A DNA stretch of 24,230 nucleotides from a virus, in IMG/VR virus record IMGVR_UViG_3300025889_000923, positions 1 to 24,230 of that record. One strand, 5' to 3'. How positions within the stretch are numbered: position 1 is the stretch's first letter; each line of letters opens with the position of its first letter. Positions 2,852 to 11,734 of the stretch are shown here, piece after piece. The notes beneath the pieces were generated by a model, which saw only the letters and a list, made by a program, of their open reading frames with translations, did no database searches and was not told where the DNA came from. The translations under genes and the position numbers were made by a program.

Positions 2852-3106
2852 TTATTTCTCCTTCTTGTTATAAAGTTTATTTCTTATAGATATATAACTA
2901 TCTATTTCTTTTTTATTAGGACGCCAACCATTTTTCCATTCATTTTTTCTACTTTCTATAAAACTTAAATAGCATTCATGGCAGCATTGGTATAGTTTTT
3001 CTTTATTAAAATCTTCTAAAGTCAAAAGTGGATAGTTGCATAAATTGCAATAAAAGTTTTCTTTAATATGTTTTCCTATTATTTTAATCTTAGGGCTGAT
3101 AAACAT
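2852..3106 (-). CDS. Small zinc-ribbon-like protein, 84 residues
   Basis: A short protein with two cysteine pairs, C20-x2-C23 and C42-x2-C45 (C41 adjacent), as in a four-cysteine zinc ribbon. Between them lies a 18-residue spacer, and after them a basic/aromatic tail with NEWKNGWRPNKKEID. The open frame reaches back to 3229, but I choose ATG 3106 because it has a good ribosome site (GGAG about 9 bases upstream). The upstream codons also overlap the Rad50 C-terminus in another frame and read as hydrophobic noise. With this start the gene overlaps the Mre11-Rad50 stop by 17 bases. Similar small Cys-rich proteins with a W-x-x-G-x-RP tail are common in T4-like phages, but I know no function. It may bind zinc and nucleic acid or a protein partner; this is inference. 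Confidence 0.85.
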   Translation of the reverse strand: MFISPKIKIIGKHIKENFYCNLCNYPLLTLEDFNKEKLYQCCHECYLSFIESRKNEWKNGWRPNKKEIDSYISIRNKLYNKKEK

Positions 3107-6100
3107 ATGAGTCGACTCCTTTTTTAATAATGTCAATATTGTTATCAACAATATCTTTGATCTCATCAATATGTGATATAATAACAATATTTTTAAACCA
3201 TTTTTTAAGTGATTGTAATAGTTTACCACAAGCTTCTAGATTTGTTTCATCCAAAGCACCAAAACCTTCATCAATCATTAACATACTAGTCTTTGGCAAT
3301 GACGATACATTAATCAATGCAACTCTAATTGCTAAAGATGACATCATTTTTTCCATCCCGGATCCTAGCTCAACAATACGCCTACTATCTCCATAGTTAA
3401 TATAAATATCCATTGAATTACTTTCTAAATCTGCTTCTAATTCAACTGTAAATCCTACAACACCTTTAAGAATTTTAGATATTTCTGCATTAATTTGCGG
3501 AAGCATAGAGTGTATAATTTGTACCGGGATACCCTTGTTTGACGTTGCTTGTAAAAATAAATCATAAGCCCTCAAAGACTTGCTTATCTTTTCAAACTCC
3601 TCTTTTTGTTTTACTAGCATATCTCTTTCGGCTTTTTCTTTTGCTAGTTTTGTAATGAGAGAAGTTCTATTTTTATCTAGATTTTTAATATCGTTGTTTG
3701 TCGATTTAATCTTTTTCTCAAGCAATAATTGGCTGTCGTTTGAGTCCTGATTGTCAAACATTTCCTTTAAATCTTTATATGTCGTTTCTAATTCCGGAAT
3801 CAACGGGCGAGTATTCTCAATATCTTTTTCATGGCTGTTAATTTTAATTAGTATGTTAGATATTGAAGAGACTAGATGTGATTTTCTTTGCACTATAGCA
3901 TTATACTTATCTAATTGTATATCGTAGTCTTCTTTTCCTAGCTTTTTAAATGCAGTCTTAAGGTCATCTACTTTTATTTTAAGCGCAGTTACTTTGTCTC
4001 GCTGCCTATCAAGCTTTTTTTTGTTTGAATGTGATTCTTTTATAAATTTACATGTTGGAAAACTATCTCCGCAAGGTACTTCACTAAGTTTTTCAACTGA
4101 TTTTTCTATTGTCAAGAGCTCTTTTCTTTCGTATTTTAAATCACTCTGCATTTCAGACAAAAGTCGATTTATTTCTTTTTGTGCATCTCGTTTTTGTTTA
4201 ATATCATCAACATCAAAGTTTGATAAAAATAAATCTACTTTTTCAATTTTTTGTTCCACTTCAAATATTTCGTCTTTGAGATTGTCTCTTAATGACTCTG
4301 ATTCTTGAATGTGTTTTAAACTTTTTTGCCATTTTGACTTGGCTACCTCTACCTCGCGGAGAGTAATGTAGCTATTATCTGTGTTTGAATGTAGTTCTTT
4401 TACATAAGTCTCATAGTCTTTTTTAAGTTTAGTGATGCTTTGCTCTTCTAGTTTAATTAATGCCTTAACTGATGTGATGCTGTTTTCTTTTATACTTATC
4501 TGTTTAACCCAATCGCCCTTATTAATGGAAGCTGCTTGTTGCTTTAAATTAGCGCTTTCTTTTTTTGCAAACTCATTCATTGCATCAAAAACAGTTAGAT
4601 CTAAAAAATTTGTAAGTATTGCTTTACGTGCTGTTGCTTTTTCTTTAATAAAGCTATTCATATCACCTTGACTGGCAAGTGATGTCATTGAAAATTCTTC
4701 TGATGTACCTAGCATTCCTCTAATAATCTTTTCAGTTTCTCTACGTTGCTCTTCAGTTAGATCTTCAATGACCTCACCAGACTTGTCTAGACGATAAAAC
4801 TTAAGTGTTGTGGGTGCCCATATGTTTTTCTTAGTTTGCTTTTTAATTGTCTGCCTAACAATTCGATAAGGTATATTATTAACAGATATATCTAGCTCAG
4901 CTTTGCATGAATTTTTTCTAGTATTGATCAAGTGTATATTTTTAATTGCACCTCTGTCTGATGTATTAAACAAGGCGTATGCTATTGTCCCAATAATTGA
5001 TGATTTACCTCTTGCATTCCTACCAAAGATCCCGGTTATCCCAGGAAGATTTTCAAAATTAATATAGTTGCTATCAGTGTAAGAAAAACAATTATCAAAT
5101 TTTATGCTGTTAATAGACCATCTAACGTTTCGTAAGTCTGTATCAGAATGAGATATTTCAGAAAGACTTCTGTCAACAAGATCGTCTAGTTTGTCTAGAT
5201 CATCTTTGAGAAGATGATTTCCATTGTAATATTCTCTTATAAGTTCTTTGTGCTTTTCAGGACTTCTAAGGTCAATTGACATTCCGCCCGTAGTGTTTGT
5301 TTCAATTTTACCTGAATCAAATTTTGAGTCGACTTTAAAAACAACTTCTGACGCTGCTTTTTGTTTTGTCAAAATTTTTTGTAATCTTCTTGCATCAGCT
5401 TGGCTTATGTAATTATCAGCCTTAATTCTAAACCTAGATAGATTAGGATATTCTCTACACTTATTCACTGTTCTTTGTACATCTCCTTGCCAGTCAACAG
5501 TTACAAAATGATACTGATTTTCAACAGGGTAAAAATTACAGGTAAAGTCGTCAGGACTCTGGATGTCCCATAACAAAAAGCCTTTTTCGCTATCTTCTCC
5601 AAAGTTTTGCTGAATTGTAGAACCACAATAGGCAATTGTACCTTTCTTATTTAGAAACTGTCTTTTATGTATATCGCCTAAGAGGGCAAAATCATATGAC
5701 TTAAATAAGTCCAATGTTGACTCGCCTTCAAGTTGCCAATCAACATCAGTAAGACTACCTCTAACAGCGCCGTGATAGAGTGCAATGCTAACTTTATCTT
5801 TGCTAGGCTTAGCCCTGTGAAAATTTTCTTCATCAAAGCAAGATAAAACACACCATTCAAACCCAGGAGCAAACTCATATGTTCCTGAATTTTTGTATAA
5901 GAATATATTTGGATTATCCAATGCTTCTACAATAGGTGTAATAGCATCTTGCCTGTCCTTGTTGAGGATTAGGCCGTCGTGGTTCCCGAGAATGACATGT
6001 GTTGGTGCTATTTTAGCCAGACCATTAAACCACCAGCAAAGATTTTCAATTAACTCTGGGGATATCCCTTGTGTTTTAGAATGTACAATATCGCCGCCTA

Positions 6101-6221
6101 CATAGATAATGTCTGGGTTTAGCTCTTCTGCCTGTTTAAACAGATCTTTGAAGGCTAAGACATACTCTTGATGTCTAGACAATCCTCTCCAATGTACGTC
6201 GGCAATATGTAGTATTTTCAT
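3090..6221 (-). CDS. Single-chain Mre11-Rad50 (SbcD-SbcC) recombination nuclease/ATPase; gp47-gp46 fusion
   Basis: One 1043-residue chain carries both subunits of the phage gp46/gp47 complex, which resects DNA ends for recombination-dependent replication and degrades host DNA. The SbcD/Mre11 part is about 1-320. Metal-site motifs are DVH (8-10), GGD (42-44), GNHD (79-82), YHGAV (149-153) and GDIH (182-185). A helical Rad50-binding region follows (about 320-362). The SbcC/Rad50 part begins near W368: Walker A GRNARGKSS (400-408), Q-loop area SLASQGDMNSF, a long coiled coil (about 570-890), hook cysteines C717 and C724, signature ELGSGMEKMM (951-960), Walker B SMLMIDEGFGALDE (979-992), and switch SH (1016-1017). 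In T4 these are two genes, 47 and 46. The ATG overlaps the preceding stop as ATGA. All catalytic residues appear intact. The fusion is continuous in frame, with no sign of a stop or restart between the parts. Confidence 0.95.
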   Translation of the reverse strand: MKILHIADVHWRGLSRHQEYVLAFKDLFKQAEELNPDIIYVGGDIVHSKTQGISPELIENLCWWFNGLAKIAPTHVILGNHDGLILNKDRQDAITPIVEALDNPNIFLYKNSGTYEFAPGFEWCVLSCFDEENFHRAKPSKDKVSIALYHGAVRGSLTDVDWQLEGESTLDLFKSYDFALLGDIHKRQFLNKKGTIAYCGSTIQQNFGEDSEKGFLLWDIQSPDDFTCNFYPVENQYHFVTVDWQGDVQRTVNKCREYPNLSRFRIKADNYISQADARRLQKILTKQKAASEVVFKVDSKFDSGKIETNTTGGMSIDLRSPEKHKELIREYYNGNHLLKDDLDKLDDLVDRSLSEISHSDTDLRNVRWSINSIKFDNCFSYTDSNYINFENLPGITGIFGRNARGKSSIIGTIAYALFNTSDRGAIKNIHLINTRKNSCKAELDISVNNIPYRIVRQTIKKQTKKNIWAPTTLKFYRLDKSGEVIEDLTEEQRRETEKIIRGMLGTSEEFSMTSLASQGDMNSFIKEKATARKAILTNFLDLTVFDAMNEFAKKESANLKQQAASINKGDWVKQISIKENSITSVKALIKLEEQSITKLKKDYETYVKELHSNTDNSYITLREVEVAKSKWQKSLKHIQESESLRDNLKDEIFEVEQKIEKVDLFLSNFDVDDIKQKRDAQKEINRLLSEMQSDLKYERKELLTIEKSVEKLSEVPCGDSFPTCKFIKESHSNKKKLDRQRDKVTALKIKVDDLKTAFKKLGKEDYDIQLDKYNAIVQRKSHLVSSISNILIKINSHEKDIENTRPLIPELETTYKDLKEMFDNQDSNDSQLLLEKKIKSTNNDIKNLDKNRTSLITKLAKEKAERDMLVKQKEEFEKISKSLRAYDLFLQATSNKGIPVQIIHSMLPQINAEISKILKGVVGFTVELEADLESNSMDIYINYGDSRRIVELGSGMEKMMSSLAIRVALINVSSLPKTSMLMIDEGFGALDETNLEACGKLLQSLKKWFKNIVIISHIDEIKDIVDNNIDIIKKGVDSYVYQP

Positions 6222-7591
6222 GATGTTTTAGCTCCTCGAGTCATTTTAACAACTGTATCTCTTTTATCAAACTGAAATGTTTGTTGTACACCTGGTAATA
6301 ATACCCAGCATCTTTTAGAAATACAAGTTTTTGGTTTGGGAGCATATCCATCCGTCATAATGATATAACCGTCATATTCAGAGCTTACTTTTCTAAAGTG
6401 ATCTTCAACAACATCAAAGTCTGTACCACCACTTCGAGTTCGATATGCCTTAGTAATTTTTTTATTTTTAGTCCATCTATGCTTGCTATCTTCATCAACA
6501 GTACAATCAAAGTGATACACAGTAAAGTTAACACGAGAAACTAAGTCATTTAGTGAACTAAAGAAATCTTGAAGCGAGACATCATCGACAGAACCAGACT
6601 GATCGATATAGATAGCGATGTTTGATGTGTACTTTGTTTTTCTACCCGGGTGAATATAAGGATACTTCCTATTGATCTTTTTAAAAGATCGAGTCCTGTT
6701 AGCTTTTTGTTTAGTACCACAAAAATATCTTAAAACTGCCTTCCAATTAATTTCATCAGCAAATGAGGCAATAATTTCTTGACGTATTGCACTACTTACA
6801 CTTCCCCAGTTTTTTGATCGATCACACCGTTGCGCTGCTTTTTTGACAATATCCTTAATTTTAGCGTCGACCATTGCCTTGTCACCTGGAGATGATGAAT
6901 CATCATTAAAGTGATAATCAAATCCTGCACATGTACCTTTTCCGGGTTTTTTGCCGTTATTACCATCTTTTGAACCATCACCGTCACCAATGTCATTACC
7001 ACTGCAATCGCCATCGCCCGATCCAAAAAGGTCTTCTAAACTAGGCGGTGCAAACATTTCCTCAATTAGTTCTTGATTTTCATCAGAGGACATAATTATT
7101 TCCATGTACCACTCAGACGATTTTCCCTTAGGGAGTGAAGCAATAAAATCTGATAATTGTTGTGCTTTTTCAGGTGCATAAGAATTTTCAATTTCAATAC
7201 ATCGCTCACCAGGAATTAGACCACCATCAGGCAATTCTGATTTAGGAATTGTTGAATTGATTGCCAAATCTGTTGCGATGTTCCACATTAAATGAGGATC
7301 CTGCTTTCTAGATGTAACATGCTGATATATCAAATGGTAACATTCATGTTTTAACAAACCAAATACTTTTTTAGTAGTTAGGCTTGATAAAAACTTTGGG
7401 TTCCAATAAAGAACAATGTCACCATTTGCGCAAGACACACCTGCTGTAGGTATTGAGTATGTCATTTCTTTGCGCATACACCTAACAATATGTGAAAAGA
7501 AAGGTTCATGTAAAAGAAATTTAAGCAATATTGCATCGAAATCTTTTTGATTATTTAATTCAATTTCATTATTTTCGGTAATGTTTTCCAT
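6218..7591 (-). CDS. Metallopeptidase-like plus VWA-domain protein, partner of MoxR ATPase
   Basis: A 457-residue protein of the putative metallopeptidase/VWA type (the DUF2201 and VWA-like pairing known next to MoxR ATPases). The N-terminal part has a zinc-protease-like HECYH (82-86) within FGLLKHECYHLIYQH, and downstream WNIATDLAIN (103-112), the usual third conserved block. A low-complexity Gly/Asp/Lys linker (about 190-220) follows, then a basic helical region. The C-terminal VWA domain starts with IAIYIDQSGS (325-334), whose DxSxS is the MIDAS metal site; later blocks are RSGGTDF and GYIIMTDGY. The start at 7591 has AAGGAGG 4 bases upstream. It lies directly downstream of a TGTAAC-N16-TATAAT promoter, and its TGA overlaps the Mre11-Rad50 ATG. 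By analogy with RavA-ViaA or NorQ-NorD, it may guide the ATPase to a substrate complex. The substrate is unknown, and protease activity is not established for this family. Confidence 0.9.
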   Translation of the reverse strand: MENITENNEIELNNQKDFDAILLKFLLHEPFFSHIVRCMRKEMTYSIPTAGVSCANGDIVLYWNPKFLSSLTTKKVFGLLKHECYHLIYQHVTSRKQDPHLMWNIATDLAINSTIPKSELPDGGLIPGERCIEIENSYAPEKAQQLSDFIASLPKGKSSEWYMEIIMSSDENQELIEEMFAPPSLEDLFGSGDGDCSGNDIGDGDGSKDGNNGKKPGKGTCAGFDYHFNDDSSSPGDKAMVDAKIKDIVKKAAQRCDRSKNWGSVSSAIRQEIIASFADEINWKAVLRYFCGTKQKANRTRSFKKINRKYPYIHPGRKTKYTSNIAIYIDQSGSVDDVSLQDFFSSLNDLVSRVNFTVYHFDCTVDEDSKHRWTKNKKITKAYRTRSGGTDFDVVEDHFRKVSSEYDGYIIMTDGYAPKPKTCISKRCWVLLPGVQQTFQFDKRDTVVKMTRGAKTS

Positions 7592-7612: not shown

Positions 7613-7640
7613 ATTATATACATAATAAAGATAGGTTACA
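7613..7640 (-). promoter_or_regulatory. Promoter-like element TGTAAC-N16-TATAAT, copy 1 (metallopeptidase/VWA gene)
   Basis: On the minus strand TGTAAC (7640-7635) is followed after exactly 16 bases by TATAAT (7618-7613). The VWA-gene ATG is 21 bases further on. The TAA inside TGTAAC is the stop codon of the upstream MoxR gene. The same pair of hexamers at the same spacing occurs before three neighbouring genes, which makes chance unlikely. Confidence 0.8.
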
Positions 7641-8712
7641 CTTTGGTTCCGTTTGCACCATTAACAGCATTTACAAATTTGTCGCCAAGGAACTTGTGAA
7701 ACTTTTTGATATTTTCTAAGTTTTTGTTTTCCATCACCATGTTCATAAAATTAACTAACATCTCTTCAGAACAAGCACAAACAAAGTTACATGCTCTTTC
7801 AATTTGTGTTATTGCGATATCGTTATCTTTTGTATATCTTGCAATTAATCCTAATAAGTCATTTTTCTTATCTGTAGATAGTTTATCAATTTTAGACTTA
7901 GTAGCTGAGCCGGGTGTGTATCTATCAAATACATCTAATGCACCAAAATTTGACTTATATTTTCTAATGAACTCATTAAATGCAATTGTTGTTTCAGCAC
8001 CAATAAAACCTAATGACATTGAGTATTGAAGATCTCTGATTGCTGAGTCATCGATATCAGTAGTCTCTGATGGTGTGATATTAGCATGCTTAAATGCAGC
8101 ATCTAAGCGTGCCCAGGAAGCTGGATTAGGGTATACCTTACCTGGTTCGAATTGGCCTTCATGTCTAAGCTTTGCTGGGTATTTTGTGATAAATTCAACA
8201 ATGATAGGATCGATATTTCCTATTGTTCCTGCCCAGTCTAACCAGTCGTTAGTTGTAGGCTCTAAACCAATTGACCAAAAACGTCGAAGAAGTGCAGGAT
8301 CCATATCTGAAACTTGGTAATCAGATCCTTCATTAATTGCTGCATAAACCCGTGTTTCAGGATGTAATTTATGACCATTGAGCTCTCTATCAAGTACAAT
8401 TTGGAAAGCGCATTGTTGCACTTCAATTGTTGCGCGATTAAGCTCGTCAAAGAATAGAATTAAAGGTTCATTGCATGCTCGAATAAACCAGTCAACAGGT
8501 GCAAATCTTGTGGTGCCGTCAACCAATTCAGGCAAACCAATTAAGTCGCCTTCAGTCATATATGATAAGCGTCGATCAACAACTTCCATATTAAGTCTTT
8601 TGCCAACTTGGTGAACAATATGAGACTTACCAATGCCCGTAGGTCCTTTTGCCAAAACTGCAATATCTGGCGGTAAGTTTGAAATTACTTGTACGAAGGT
8701 TTTAATATCCAT
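7636..8712 (-). CDS. MoxR-family AAA+ ATPase
   Basis: A 358-residue AAA+ ATPase of the MoxR type, a chaperone-like motor that usually works with a VWA-domain partner; that partner is the next gene downstream. Motifs: Walker A GPTGIGKS (23-30); the family-typical GDLIGLPE (55-62) and TRFAPVDWFIRA (68-79); Walker B LILFFDELNR (84-93, D89-E90); sensor 1 in YAAINEGSDY (N127); arginine-finger block MDPALLRRF (137-145); a helical lid follows. The ATG at 8712 has AGGAG about 7 bases upstream and a promoter-like element about 31 bases upstream. A 44-base gap with its own promoter separates it from the VWA gene, so the two can be expressed together or apart. Family assignment is firm; its role in the phage is unknown. 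Confidence 0.93.
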   Translation of the reverse strand: MDIKTFVQVISNLPPDIAVLAKGPTGIGKSHIVHQVGKRLNMEVVDRRLSYMTEGDLIGLPELVDGTTRFAPVDWFIRACNEPLILFFDELNRATIEVQQCAFQIVLDRELNGHKLHPETRVYAAINEGSDYQVSDMDPALLRRFWSIGLEPTTNDWLDWAGTIGNIDPIIVEFITKYPAKLRHEGQFEPGKVYPNPASWARLDAAFKHANITPSETTDIDDSAIRDLQYSMSLGFIGAETTIAFNEFIRKYKSNFGALDVFDRYTPGSATKSKIDKLSTDKKNDLLGLIARYTKDNDIAITQIERACNFVCACSEEMLVNFMNMVMENKNLENIKKFHKFLGDKFVNAVNGANGTKV

Positions 8713-9269: not shown

Positions 9270-9758
9270 TTATTTACAAACTGCTAGTGACTTTGCGTAA
9301 TGCCAATGATTACCTGATGGTGACATAACAAGAAATAGGGTTCTATCATAATGCACAGCGTGACTACCTGTTCCATTATAGCTTTCGTCTACATCTTCAC
9401 TAACAATAATGCCATAAGATTGTTCTGATACATTTCTATGTGATATCAATACAAGGTCACCAATTTTATGGTTCCATTTAATTCCACGAGTCTTAGGTTC
9501 TGATGACATATGTTTACGTGCTTTCTTTTTGGCATTTTTAATTTGTGCTGACTTGCTTATTGCTGGTTGCGATTCTGGTGAATTTTTAGCTTCTTCACGA
9601 ATTGCTTTCTTAATATCATTAAGTGTCTTAGGTGTATTGTCAGAATTATCTTCTGTGATTGTTTGGTTTTGAAGCTGTTGTTCTATCTCAACAGCATTTT
9701 GTTCTCTAAGTTTAGCCTTGATTTTGCTCAATTCTTTTCTATTGATTTTTCTTCCCAT
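9270..9758 (-). CDS. Unknown 162-residue protein: basic N-terminus, SH3-like C-terminus
   Basis: No confident family. Residues 1-90 are highly charged and predicted disordered or helical (RKINRKELSKIKAKLREQNA at the start, KNAKKKARKH near 75-83), fit for nucleic-acid or protein binding. Residues about 95-162 form a string of short beta strands: KIGDLVLISHRN, SYGIIVSEDV, TLFLVMSPSGNHWHYAKSL. The pattern of a chain starting GDLV, then YGIIV, then a W-containing strand resembles small SH3-like barrels found in phage proteins. The start at 9758 has AAGGAGG about 6 bases upstream and promoter copy 4 about 19 bases upstream. Expression is therefore likely independent of the PAP2-Fic gene before it. 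The barrel assignment is by eye. Confidence 0.82.
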   Translation of the reverse strand: MGRKINRKELSKIKAKLREQNAVEIEQQLQNQTITEDNSDNTPKTLNDIKKAIREEAKNSPESQPAISKSAQIKNAKKKARKHMSSEPKTRGIKWNHKIGDLVLISHRNVSEQSYGIIVSEDVDESYNGTGSHAVHYDRTLFLVMSPSGNHWHYAKSLAVCK

Positions 9759-9777: not shown

Positions 9778-9805
9778 ATTATACACAATAAACGGCAAAG
9801 TTACA
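9778..9805 (-). promoter_or_regulatory. Promoter-like element TGTAAC-N16-TATAAT, copy 4 (162-residue gene)
   Basis: On the minus strand TGTAAC (9805-9800) and TATAAT (9783-9778) are separated by exactly 16 bases, 19 bases before the ATG at 9758. The -10 also carries an upstream TG (TGTGTATAAT). The TAA within TGTAAC is the stop codon of the PAP2-Fic gene, as in copy 1. Confidence 0.8.
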
Positions 9806-11099
9806 TTTTTAGTAGTTTTTCCATCTTATCAGGCTGCATGTGTGCTATTATATTTTTTATATAATCACTACTTATCATTTGATTAACTTTTGAAAAATCA
9901 AAATCACAATCTGCAGCCATTACAATTCTTCCTGACCTACCGTTTCCATCGCAAAATGGATGTACATATTCATAAAGTAAATGTCTTATCCACGGATTAT
10001 CTATAAAGTTATGTGTTGCTTTAAGATAGCTATCTATTGTGTTAGGTTCGGGATATGAAACAGACGCACGGGAACTATGAGAAAAGTTTCTAAATTCGCC
10101 TGGTGCACCTCGTTCTAAGACATTAGGATGAAAGCATTTATGAATTTTATTAACTTTGTAATTGTTGTCTATTGGCATACATACACTTGCCATAACTAAA
10201 CCGTCAATCTGTGATTTAATATGTGGGTTTTTAGTTATAAACTCGCTAGGTAGTCCAGCCATTAAATGTTTTGCGGCATCAAAGCATTCATCATATGAAA
10301 GATTATAAAATTCTATCTGATTTGTCCGGTGCAAAAAATCAGCTATGTCATGTGCAAAGTTTTTTTGACAATCATTTTCACCGTAAACATGATGTGCTTT
10401 TTTGTTCATTTTTTTGGCAAATTTTTTATAATGCTTATTTTTGAGACCACCTTCTATCTCACCCATTGTATTATCATTATCTAAAAAAATAGAAGCCAAT
10501 GTTTCACCAATTAATCTACCGTACTCAACGTCTGTAGGGAAATGTACAGCATTTTCTAATCTGGTTTGACCAATCAATCCTGCTAGGGTTTGTAAGTCGT
10601 TTTTAATTTCAGGAATTTGGGAAGATAAAACATCACATAAAAAATATGCGATTGTTGTATGACCGCTTGGAAAGCTAGGTGATTTCTTATATTTAATCTG
10701 AGTGCTGTCTTGACTGTCAAAGTAGTGTAACGGTCTAGGTCTATTATTGTCATATTTTAACTTTAAAACGATTGAGTCGACATCATCAAGTATGCCAGAT
10801 ATCTTTTTCCAATCAATATTCTTGTAGCCGTTTTCCTTGCAATACGTTTTAAATATATCTTCTACGGATTCATCACTTTGTCTAAGAAAACTAGTTGTCA
10901 TACTAGGCGTATTATAGCAACGTACTACTTCTTTCATATCATTCTGAAACCTTTGTGTACCTTCCTTAGGGTAATTAATTTTAGGTATTTTATCAAAACA
11001 AGACATGTCAAAGTATCTGCATCTTCTGGCCATTCTTTTTGCATGTGATACATCTATTTCATTTTTTGTTTCTTTAAATAGTCCTTGTATAGATTTCAT
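9801..11099 (-). CDS. PAP2-superfamily phosphatase fused to a Fic domain
   Basis: A 432-residue protein that joins two enzymes not usually found together. The N-terminal half has the three blocks of the PAP2/class A acid phosphatase signature: K113-x6-R120-P121 (KLKYDNNRP), PSGH at 144-147 with catalytic H147, and TRLENAVHFPTD at 179-190 with R180, H186 and D190. The C-terminal half is a Fic domain: GAPGEFRNFS (331-340), then the active-site HPFCDGNGRSGR (380-391), matching HPFx(D/E)GN(G/K)R. Fic proteins transfer AMP or other phosphate-linked groups to proteins; PAP2 enzymes remove phosphates. No signal peptide or membrane helices are seen, so it is probably cytoplasmic. I found no clear inhibitory (S/T)xxxE(G/N) helix. 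The ATG overlaps the stop of the preceding gene (TAATG), pointing to coupled translation. The substrate is unknown; a host-modifying role is inference. Confidence 0.93.
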   Translation of the reverse strand: MKSIQGLFKETKNEIDVSHAKRMARRCRYFDMSCFDKIPKINYPKEGTQRFQNDMKEVVRCYNTPSMTTSFLRQSDESVEDIFKTYCKENGYKNIDWKKISGILDDVDSIVLKLKYDNNRPRPLHYFDSQDSTQIKYKKSPSFPSGHTTIAYFLCDVLSSQIPEIKNDLQTLAGLIGQTRLENAVHFPTDVEYGRLIGETLASIFLDNDNTMGEIEGGLKNKHYKKFAKKMNKKAHHVYGENDCQKNFAHDIADFLHRTNQIEFYNLSYDECFDAAKHLMAGLPSEFITKNPHIKSQIDGLVMASVCMPIDNNYKVNKIHKCFHPNVLERGAPGEFRNFSHSSRASVSYPEPNTIDSYLKATHNFIDNPWIRHLLYEYVHPFCDGNGRSGRIVMAADCDFDFSKVNQMISSDYIKNIIAHMQPDKMEKLLKM

Positions 11100-11734
11100 T
11101 AAAACTCGTCATCATAAAAATCATAATCTAGAGAATGATACACTTCAGATATATCGTCAGATATTTGAGCAATTTTTGTTCTTTGCCAGTCATCTAATTC
11201 ATATCCATCAGGGATCATTTGTAAAAGCTTTTGGGAATATTTTGCAACTTTATAAAGGGAGGGTTTTGCCATATAATTGTTATTCTTATATTCATGGCCA
11301 TCTAATTGACCGTTGTCAATTTGACCACCTAAAGCACCCATAACAATATGTGTAATATCATCTTCTAAAAAGTCATGATCAGGTCGAGGATTTGGAAATC
11401 GCACTCCATGCTCCAAATGATCAGGAATAAAATCATTATCCAAATCGTTGTCACCACACGTCGGACATGATCCACAGCCACAATCACCTTCTTCAAGCAT
11501 GCCTCCTCTAGAATAACCACATTCCATGCAATCACCTTCATATACTTCGGAACCACCGCATTGTCGGCATGTGTCATGCATGACAGCATTACCTTTCTTT
11601 ACTCGTTGGATATCGTCATATCCTGTATCTCTATTCATATCTTTTACACGATTAACTAGCGTATCTTCACCAACGACTTTTGCCAACTCTTGTATTACTA
11701 GGCTTCTTATTTTTTGCTTATTTAGTCTGGACAT
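11099..11734 (-). CDS. Cysteine-rich protein with zinc-ribbon and TSP3-like calcium loop
   Basis: A 211-residue protein in four parts. (1) A basic N-terminal helix (MSRLNKQKIRSLVIQELAKV). (2) A zinc-ribbon-like segment with C56-x2-C59 and C69-x2-C72, followed by a second cluster C85, C87, C90, C93. (3) An acidic loop, DNDLDNDFIPDHLEHG (95-110), with aspartates at 95, 97, 99, 101 and 105, close to the calcium-binding thrombospondin type-3 / dockerin pattern. (4) A C-terminal helical segment (about 160-205) with DGYELDDWQRTKIAQISDDI. A segment of the type ELDDWVQxKIxxAxDYI recurs in several marine phage proteins, often near head genes. The start has AGGAGA 7 bases upstream. The gene is TAATG-coupled to the PAP2-Fic gene. 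Exact role unknown; metal binding is predicted only from residue spacing. Confidence 0.85.
   Translation of the reverse strand: MSRLNKQKIRSLVIQELAKVVGEDTLVNRVKDMNRDTGYDDIQRVKKGNAVMHDTCRQCGGSEVYEGDCMECGYSRGGMLEEGDCGCGSCPTCGDNDLDNDFIPDHLEHGVRFPNPRPDHDFLEDDITHIVMGALGGQIDNGQLDGHEYKNNNYMAKPSLYKVAKYSQKLLQMIPDGYELDDWQRTKIAQISDDISEVYHSLDYDFYDDEF

Follow-up and report, generated by a model that had tools for sequence, protein, structure and literature searches.

A PAP2-type phosphatase joined to a Fic transferase in an uncultured lineage of T4-like phages, with an N-terminus that may direct it to the phage head

We analyzed a stretch of 24,230 bases of viral DNA (hereafter the window) from IMG/VR virus record IMGVR_UViG_3300025889_000923; all contigs compared with it likewise come from IMG/VR. 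On the minus strand, positions 9801–11099, an open reading frame with an ATG start encodes a chain of 432 residues in which a PAP2 phosphatase domain is followed by a Fic domain (PAP2-Fic). Immediately upstream on the same strand lies a gene for a 211-residue protein with a Cys-rich middle (11099–11734), the stop of which shares one base with the ATG of PAP2-Fic. Downstream, again on the minus strand, are a gene for 162 residues that was recognized only in nearer members of the lineage (9270–9758) and two genes of a conserved block, encoding a MoxR-type AAA ATPase (7636–8712) and a DUF2201 metallopeptidase-like/VWA protein (6218–7591). An SbcD-type nuclease and an SbcC-type ATPase, joined lineage-wide in a single chain of 1043 residues, occupy positions 3090–6221, and the window further encodes a T4-type terminase as well as primase-like and RuvC-like proteins. 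Since the closest terminases from isolates, those of Microcystis phage Mel-JY01 and the Flavobacterium phages 'immuto', are only ∼41% identical, the collection yielded no cultured representative of this lineage. The last 55 residues of the 211-residue neighbor are almost invariant within the lineage (86–98% identity) and recur in 30 contigs at ∼32–52% identity; the stretches retrieved from these contigs lack PAP2-Fic.

Alignment scans brought in the close relatives of PAP2-Fic, and motif scans (Fic and PAP2) the more distant ones, yielding ∼20 distinct homologues with 32–63% identity to the window protein. The compared set consisted of 17 distinct chains in which both motifs are intact (L132 among them being truncated) and three with a degenerate Fic half. 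Wherever the context was readable the locus was constant, with the RuvC/primase side on one flank and the MoxR/VWA/SbcDC side on the other; this also held for L232 and L149, in which neither MoxR nor VWA was seen and PAP2-Fic is directly followed by SbcDC. PAP2-Fic is a conserved block gene of an uncultured T4-like phage lineage. A preliminary description of this DNA had read the chain as one protein with a PAP2 and a Fic half, and both halves indeed matched their Pfam profiles above the gathering scores (PAP2, E = 8.2e-14, residues 110–205; Fic, E = 1.3e-8, residues 319–395). That description had also allowed for a frameshift that relatives would lack. The corresponding artefact, two genes merged into one reading by gene calling or assembly, has nothing in its favor except the odd pairing of domains, and its probability is practically nil: the ∼20 distinct homologues stem from different samples and carry the fusion with identical domain order in a single open frame, which already refutes it. 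PAP2-Fic is thus a genuine phage fusion with both active sites intact.

The three catalytic motifs of the PAP2 half, all on the minus strand, are invariant in 20/20 chains: K115-x6-R122-P123 (10731–10757), PSGH at residues 144–147 (10659–10670) and R180-x5-H186-x3-D190 (10530–10562). Together they fit the signature of class A acid phosphatases, KX6RP-(X12-54)-PSGH-(X31-54)-SRX5HX3D (PMC12356135), with inter-motif spacings of 20 and 31 residues. The second and third motifs had been placed correctly before, whereas K113 had been taken for the signature lysine. We reject this assignment because K113 (N in L002, R in L010) and P121 (L in L015) of a K113-x6-R120-P121 reading vary, while K115-x6-R122-P123 fits KX6RP and never does. 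In a profile search of the PDB the PAP2 half matched PhoN/PhoC (1.8e-14), and Foldseek returned acid phosphatases with a TMt of up to 0.70 (7f18). PAP2-Fic shares with these class A enzymes both signature and fold, and differs from them in its C-terminal Fic domain and in the residue preceding R180, which is T (T179) in the window protein and some other members and S, as in the signature, in several relatives. It also differs in having no membrane segment or secretion signal: the N-terminus is hydrophilic and the highest 19-residue hydropathy is 0.76. The lack of a secretion signal indicates an acid-phosphatase-like protein rather than a periplasmic class A enzyme, and, since no part of the chain reaches the hydrophobicity of a membrane segment, the protein should be soluble, presumably cytoplasmic or head-internal. 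We predict with high confidence that the PAP2 half is an active phosphatase. PAP2 domains were also seen within large phage chains of ∼890–1120 residues (L166:6974-9766 on the plus strand, L231, L199, L193 and L174). In L166, a 293-kb contig with a gp21-type protease, the region before PAP2 resembles tRNA nucleotidyltransferase and contains an LLLRE|S site.

The Fic active site, HPFCDGNGRSGR (residues 380–391; 9927–9962, minus strand), lies where the preliminary description had placed it and fits HxFx[DE]GNGRxxR. H380, D384, GNGR 385–388 and R391 are identical in 17/20 chains, the catalytic positions being replaced in L197, L219 and L182. The 17 Fic-intact members agree at every catalytic residue of both halves, at identities of 35–63%. 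A flap-like segment, PGEFR at residues 333–337 (10089–10103, minus strand), contains G334 and R337, neither of which varies among the 16 full-length rows. No clear inhibitory helix had been recognized previously; however, the predicted helix 244–262 ends at an [ST]xxIE motif, T259-N-Q-I-E263 (10311–10325, minus strand), in which E263 is present in 17/17 Fic-intact members. The textbook motif of class II Fic proteins is [ST]xxxE[GN]. TNQIE matches [ST]xxxE, with F instead of the usual G/N at the sixth position; this position is N, in full agreement with the textbook form, in L011 (TSEIEN), L010 (SNQKEN) and L230 (TNEIEN), and often R or K elsewhere (SNEIER, TNQIER). In a profile alignment, segment 259–263 pairs with SSKIER of the Fic protein in PDB 7cb8. 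PAP2-Fic thus resembles the class II enzymes FICD, SoFic and CdFic in its HPFxDGNGRxGR site, its N-terminal [ST]xxxE helix and its flap arginine, and is unlike them in its phosphatase partner domain and in a sixth motif position that is mostly R/K/F. As this position departs from G/N in most members, assignment of the Fic half to the auto-inhibited class II is probable only. An inhibitory glutamate of this kind damps AMPylation in Fic enzymes and supports de-AMPylation, which in EfFIC and FICD can be carried out by Fic itself (PMC6408439). Further PDB profile matches were 4x2e, NmFic, SoFic and FICD, the last also being the Foldseek match of the Fic half. PADLOC reported Fic-only similarity (SoFic, PDC-S04) and no sign of a defense system, and every NCBIfam profile scored below its cut-off. 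We consider both enzyme identities, phosphatase and Fic transferase, to be strong. The Fic half is very likely an active NMP-transferase, most likely an AMPylator, and its auto-inhibition is likely. Another phage protein with a Fic fold, P1 Doc, differs from PAP2-Fic: it is a kinase, its antitoxin is separate, and its motif is degenerate, K standing in place of G (PMC4454073 and general background).

AlphaFold2 gave a confident two-domain fold with a 76-row alignment (mean pLDDT 94.8, pTM 0.88), which was used in place of an alignment of four close relatives (pLDDT 42). Foldseek found no target covering both halves. Nor was a chain with both halves found in INPHARED, PLSDB, the PDB or BFVD, and tblastn against phages and plasmids returned single-domain matches only. 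Among 399 cellular genomes of one phylum, all matches with E ≤ 1e-10 fell within the PAP2 half or close to it, without any of them reaching the Fic active site, and one narrow scan of the whole genome collection yielded only a Fic-only contig. The literature search retrieved no paper in which PAP2 is combined with Fic, or in which Fic is linked to head packaging. Within the collections searched, PAP2-Fic is a new domain architecture, and the earlier statement that no characterized phage protein is built this way holds for INPHARED, PLSDB, the PDB, BFVD and the literature searched.

The three chains with a degenerate Fic half (L197, L219 and L182) form a single branch with support of 100/100. 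Their Fic motifs read KPFSNGNKR, APFEKGNKK and APFSRGNRK, respectively, and H380, D384 and R391 are lost, while every PAP2 catalytic residue is kept. PAP2 thus seems to have a selected role that does not depend on Fic catalysis, since the clade keeps its PAP2 sites complete. The inhibitory motif reads CTRAN in L197, CTGIS in L219 and CTHKE in L182, which suggests that it decays once the transferase is dead; the loss of E263 together with the Fic active site is only partial, as L182 retains its Glu. This natural Fic-dead clade offers a ready comparison for the role of each half.

The first ten residues, MKSIQGLFKE (11070–11099, minus strand), resemble a capsid-targeting sequence with a putative prohead-protease site, LFKE|T. 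The 19 members whose start is intact all have I or L at position 4, L at position 7 and F at position 8. Position 10 varies: 13 members have E, two D, two N, one A and one L. T4 IPIII begins with MKTYQEFIAE and has the same spacing, with hydrophobic residues at 4, 7 and 8 and E10. The ten-residue N-terminus is thus a likeness to T4 IPII/IPIII, which are otherwise small proteins and not known Fic or PAP2 enzymes. In the T4 sequence, positions 4 and 7 are important for targeting, and positions 8 and 10 for processing; a D at position 10 prevents processing but leaves targeting in place (PMC9026906). A gp21-type prohead protease (peptidase S77) was present in 6/6 lineage contigs tested and a T4-type major capsid protein in 5/5; the protease was not seen within the 24-kb window. 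In G001, a protein of 490 residues encoded just before the capsid gene, in the scaffold position, starts MSKLFEE|A, and the major capsid protein carries VLRE|A near residue 60, both sharing the phi-phi-x-E form of LFKE|T. Residues 1–10 have a pLDDT of 57 in the AlphaFold2 model and appear flexible. The first ten residues therefore plausibly, by analogy with T4, serve head packaging and make PAP2-Fic a candidate for delivery into the host with the DNA. On the other hand, 6/19 members have another residue (N, N, L, A, D, D) in place of E10, which means that cleavage cannot be general, though D10 keeps targeting in T4; the ten-residue match may be due to chance; and the neighborhood of the gene includes replication/recombination genes besides those for head and packaging. 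A search for the T4 late promoter TATAAATA gave nothing above chance. On balance, we put packaging in the phage head, as predicted from the N-terminus, at even odds.

In G001 (L235-L245) and G002 (L246-L257), dozens of otherwise unlike proteins start with MKITRRQLRKLIxE or a near variant (for example L242:11006-11770 and L247:6618-8909), and phi-phi-x-E occurs at residues 3–20 of 54/200 and 59/212 genes, respectively, whereas protein interiors would predict ∼23 and ∼24. MKITRRQLRKLIxE may act as a tag that targets a large set of head-packaged proteins to the capsid; our literature search found no paper with this tag. Two standalone Fic proteins, L069:294-923 (minus strand) and L084:69-707 (plus strand), start with MRITKNDLRKIIVE or alike, carry SNEIE and HPFSDGNGRSGR, and are near relatives of the Fic half of the fusion (E = 8e-50 and 4e-45); genes adjoining them bear the same kind of tag. 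Among the tagged genes of G001, at ∼151.8 kb, lies a phage tmRNA with the tag ANNNNFYDVALAA (L242:13225-13561, plus strand; ARAGORN and Rfam RF00023, 109 bits).

We propose that PAP2-Fic is a head-packaged, ejected and auto-inhibited Fic NMP-transferase with an attached phosphatase, and give this complete reading a probability of about 0.4. The first ∼10 residues would draw the protein into the prohead, where the gp21-type protease would usually clip it after LFxE and so free it from the scaffold, and it would then be ejected into the host along with the DNA, as is T4 Alt. Once there, displacement of E263 would allow the Fic half to modify one or several host proteins by NMP transfer, and the PAP2 half would hydrolyze a phosphomonoester or pyrophosphate in solution, one candidate being the PPi that Fic releases, or act on a separate target. 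T4 Alt, which loses an N-terminal propeptide of six residues, MELITE, also ending in phi-phi-x-E, is likewise a protein-modifying transferase of a T4-type phage. It differs in being an ADP-ribosyltransferase without a phosphatase and in being head-packaged, which for PAP2-Fic is a prediction from sequence.

The same two enzymes could also act unpackaged, modifying host or phage proteins in the cytoplasm of the infected cell, with the N-terminus serving oligomerization or stability. The location of the gene between replication/recombination genes (RuvC-like, primase-like, MoxR, VWA, SbcDC) agrees with this, and we regard it as a real possibility; however, it leaves an invariant, flexible N-terminus at the T4 targeting spacing unexplained, and tagged standalone Fic relatives exist. 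It is less probable that PAP2 is the main activity, draining a pool of a signal nucleotide or pyrophosphate, and that Fic is an accessory that tunes it, perhaps via self-modification. PAP2-only phage relatives are common, and the three-member clade lost H380, D384 and R391 while keeping all PAP2 catalytic residues, both of which would be expected in that case. Yet Fic-only relatives exist as well, and the invariance of the Fic catalytic residues and E263 in 17/20 chains implies that Fic catalysis is selected.

The preliminary description had suggested a modify/unmodify or substrate-preparing device, in which PAP2 removes the group attached by Fic or makes the Fic substrate. Such coupling is conceivable for two sites on one chain whose arrangement is confidently predicted (pTM 0.88). 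The protein–AMP bond, however, is a phosphodiester, whereas PAP2 and class A acid phosphatases are phosphomonoesterases. Moreover, glutamate-bearing Fic enzymes can de-AMPylate by themselves (PMC6408439), which together with the nature of the bond disfavors an undoing role for PAP2, and PAP2 is intact where Fic is dead. The idea thus finds no support in our data and seems very improbable.

While each of the two domains is well known, the joined chain, its lineage-wide conservation and its possible head packaging are new with respect to the collections and literature searched. Fic-type chemistry in phages is best known from the P1 Doc kinase. If the head-packaged reading of PAP2-Fic is true, phages would use Fic-type NMP transfer as an injected host-modifying activity, fused to a phosphatase across a whole lineage. 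The N-terminal pattern would further point to dozens of other candidate packaged proteins in the same genomes, and PAP2-Fic, as a virion-delivered host-modifying enzyme within a large tagged head-packaged set, would represent a chemical alternative to T4 Alt.
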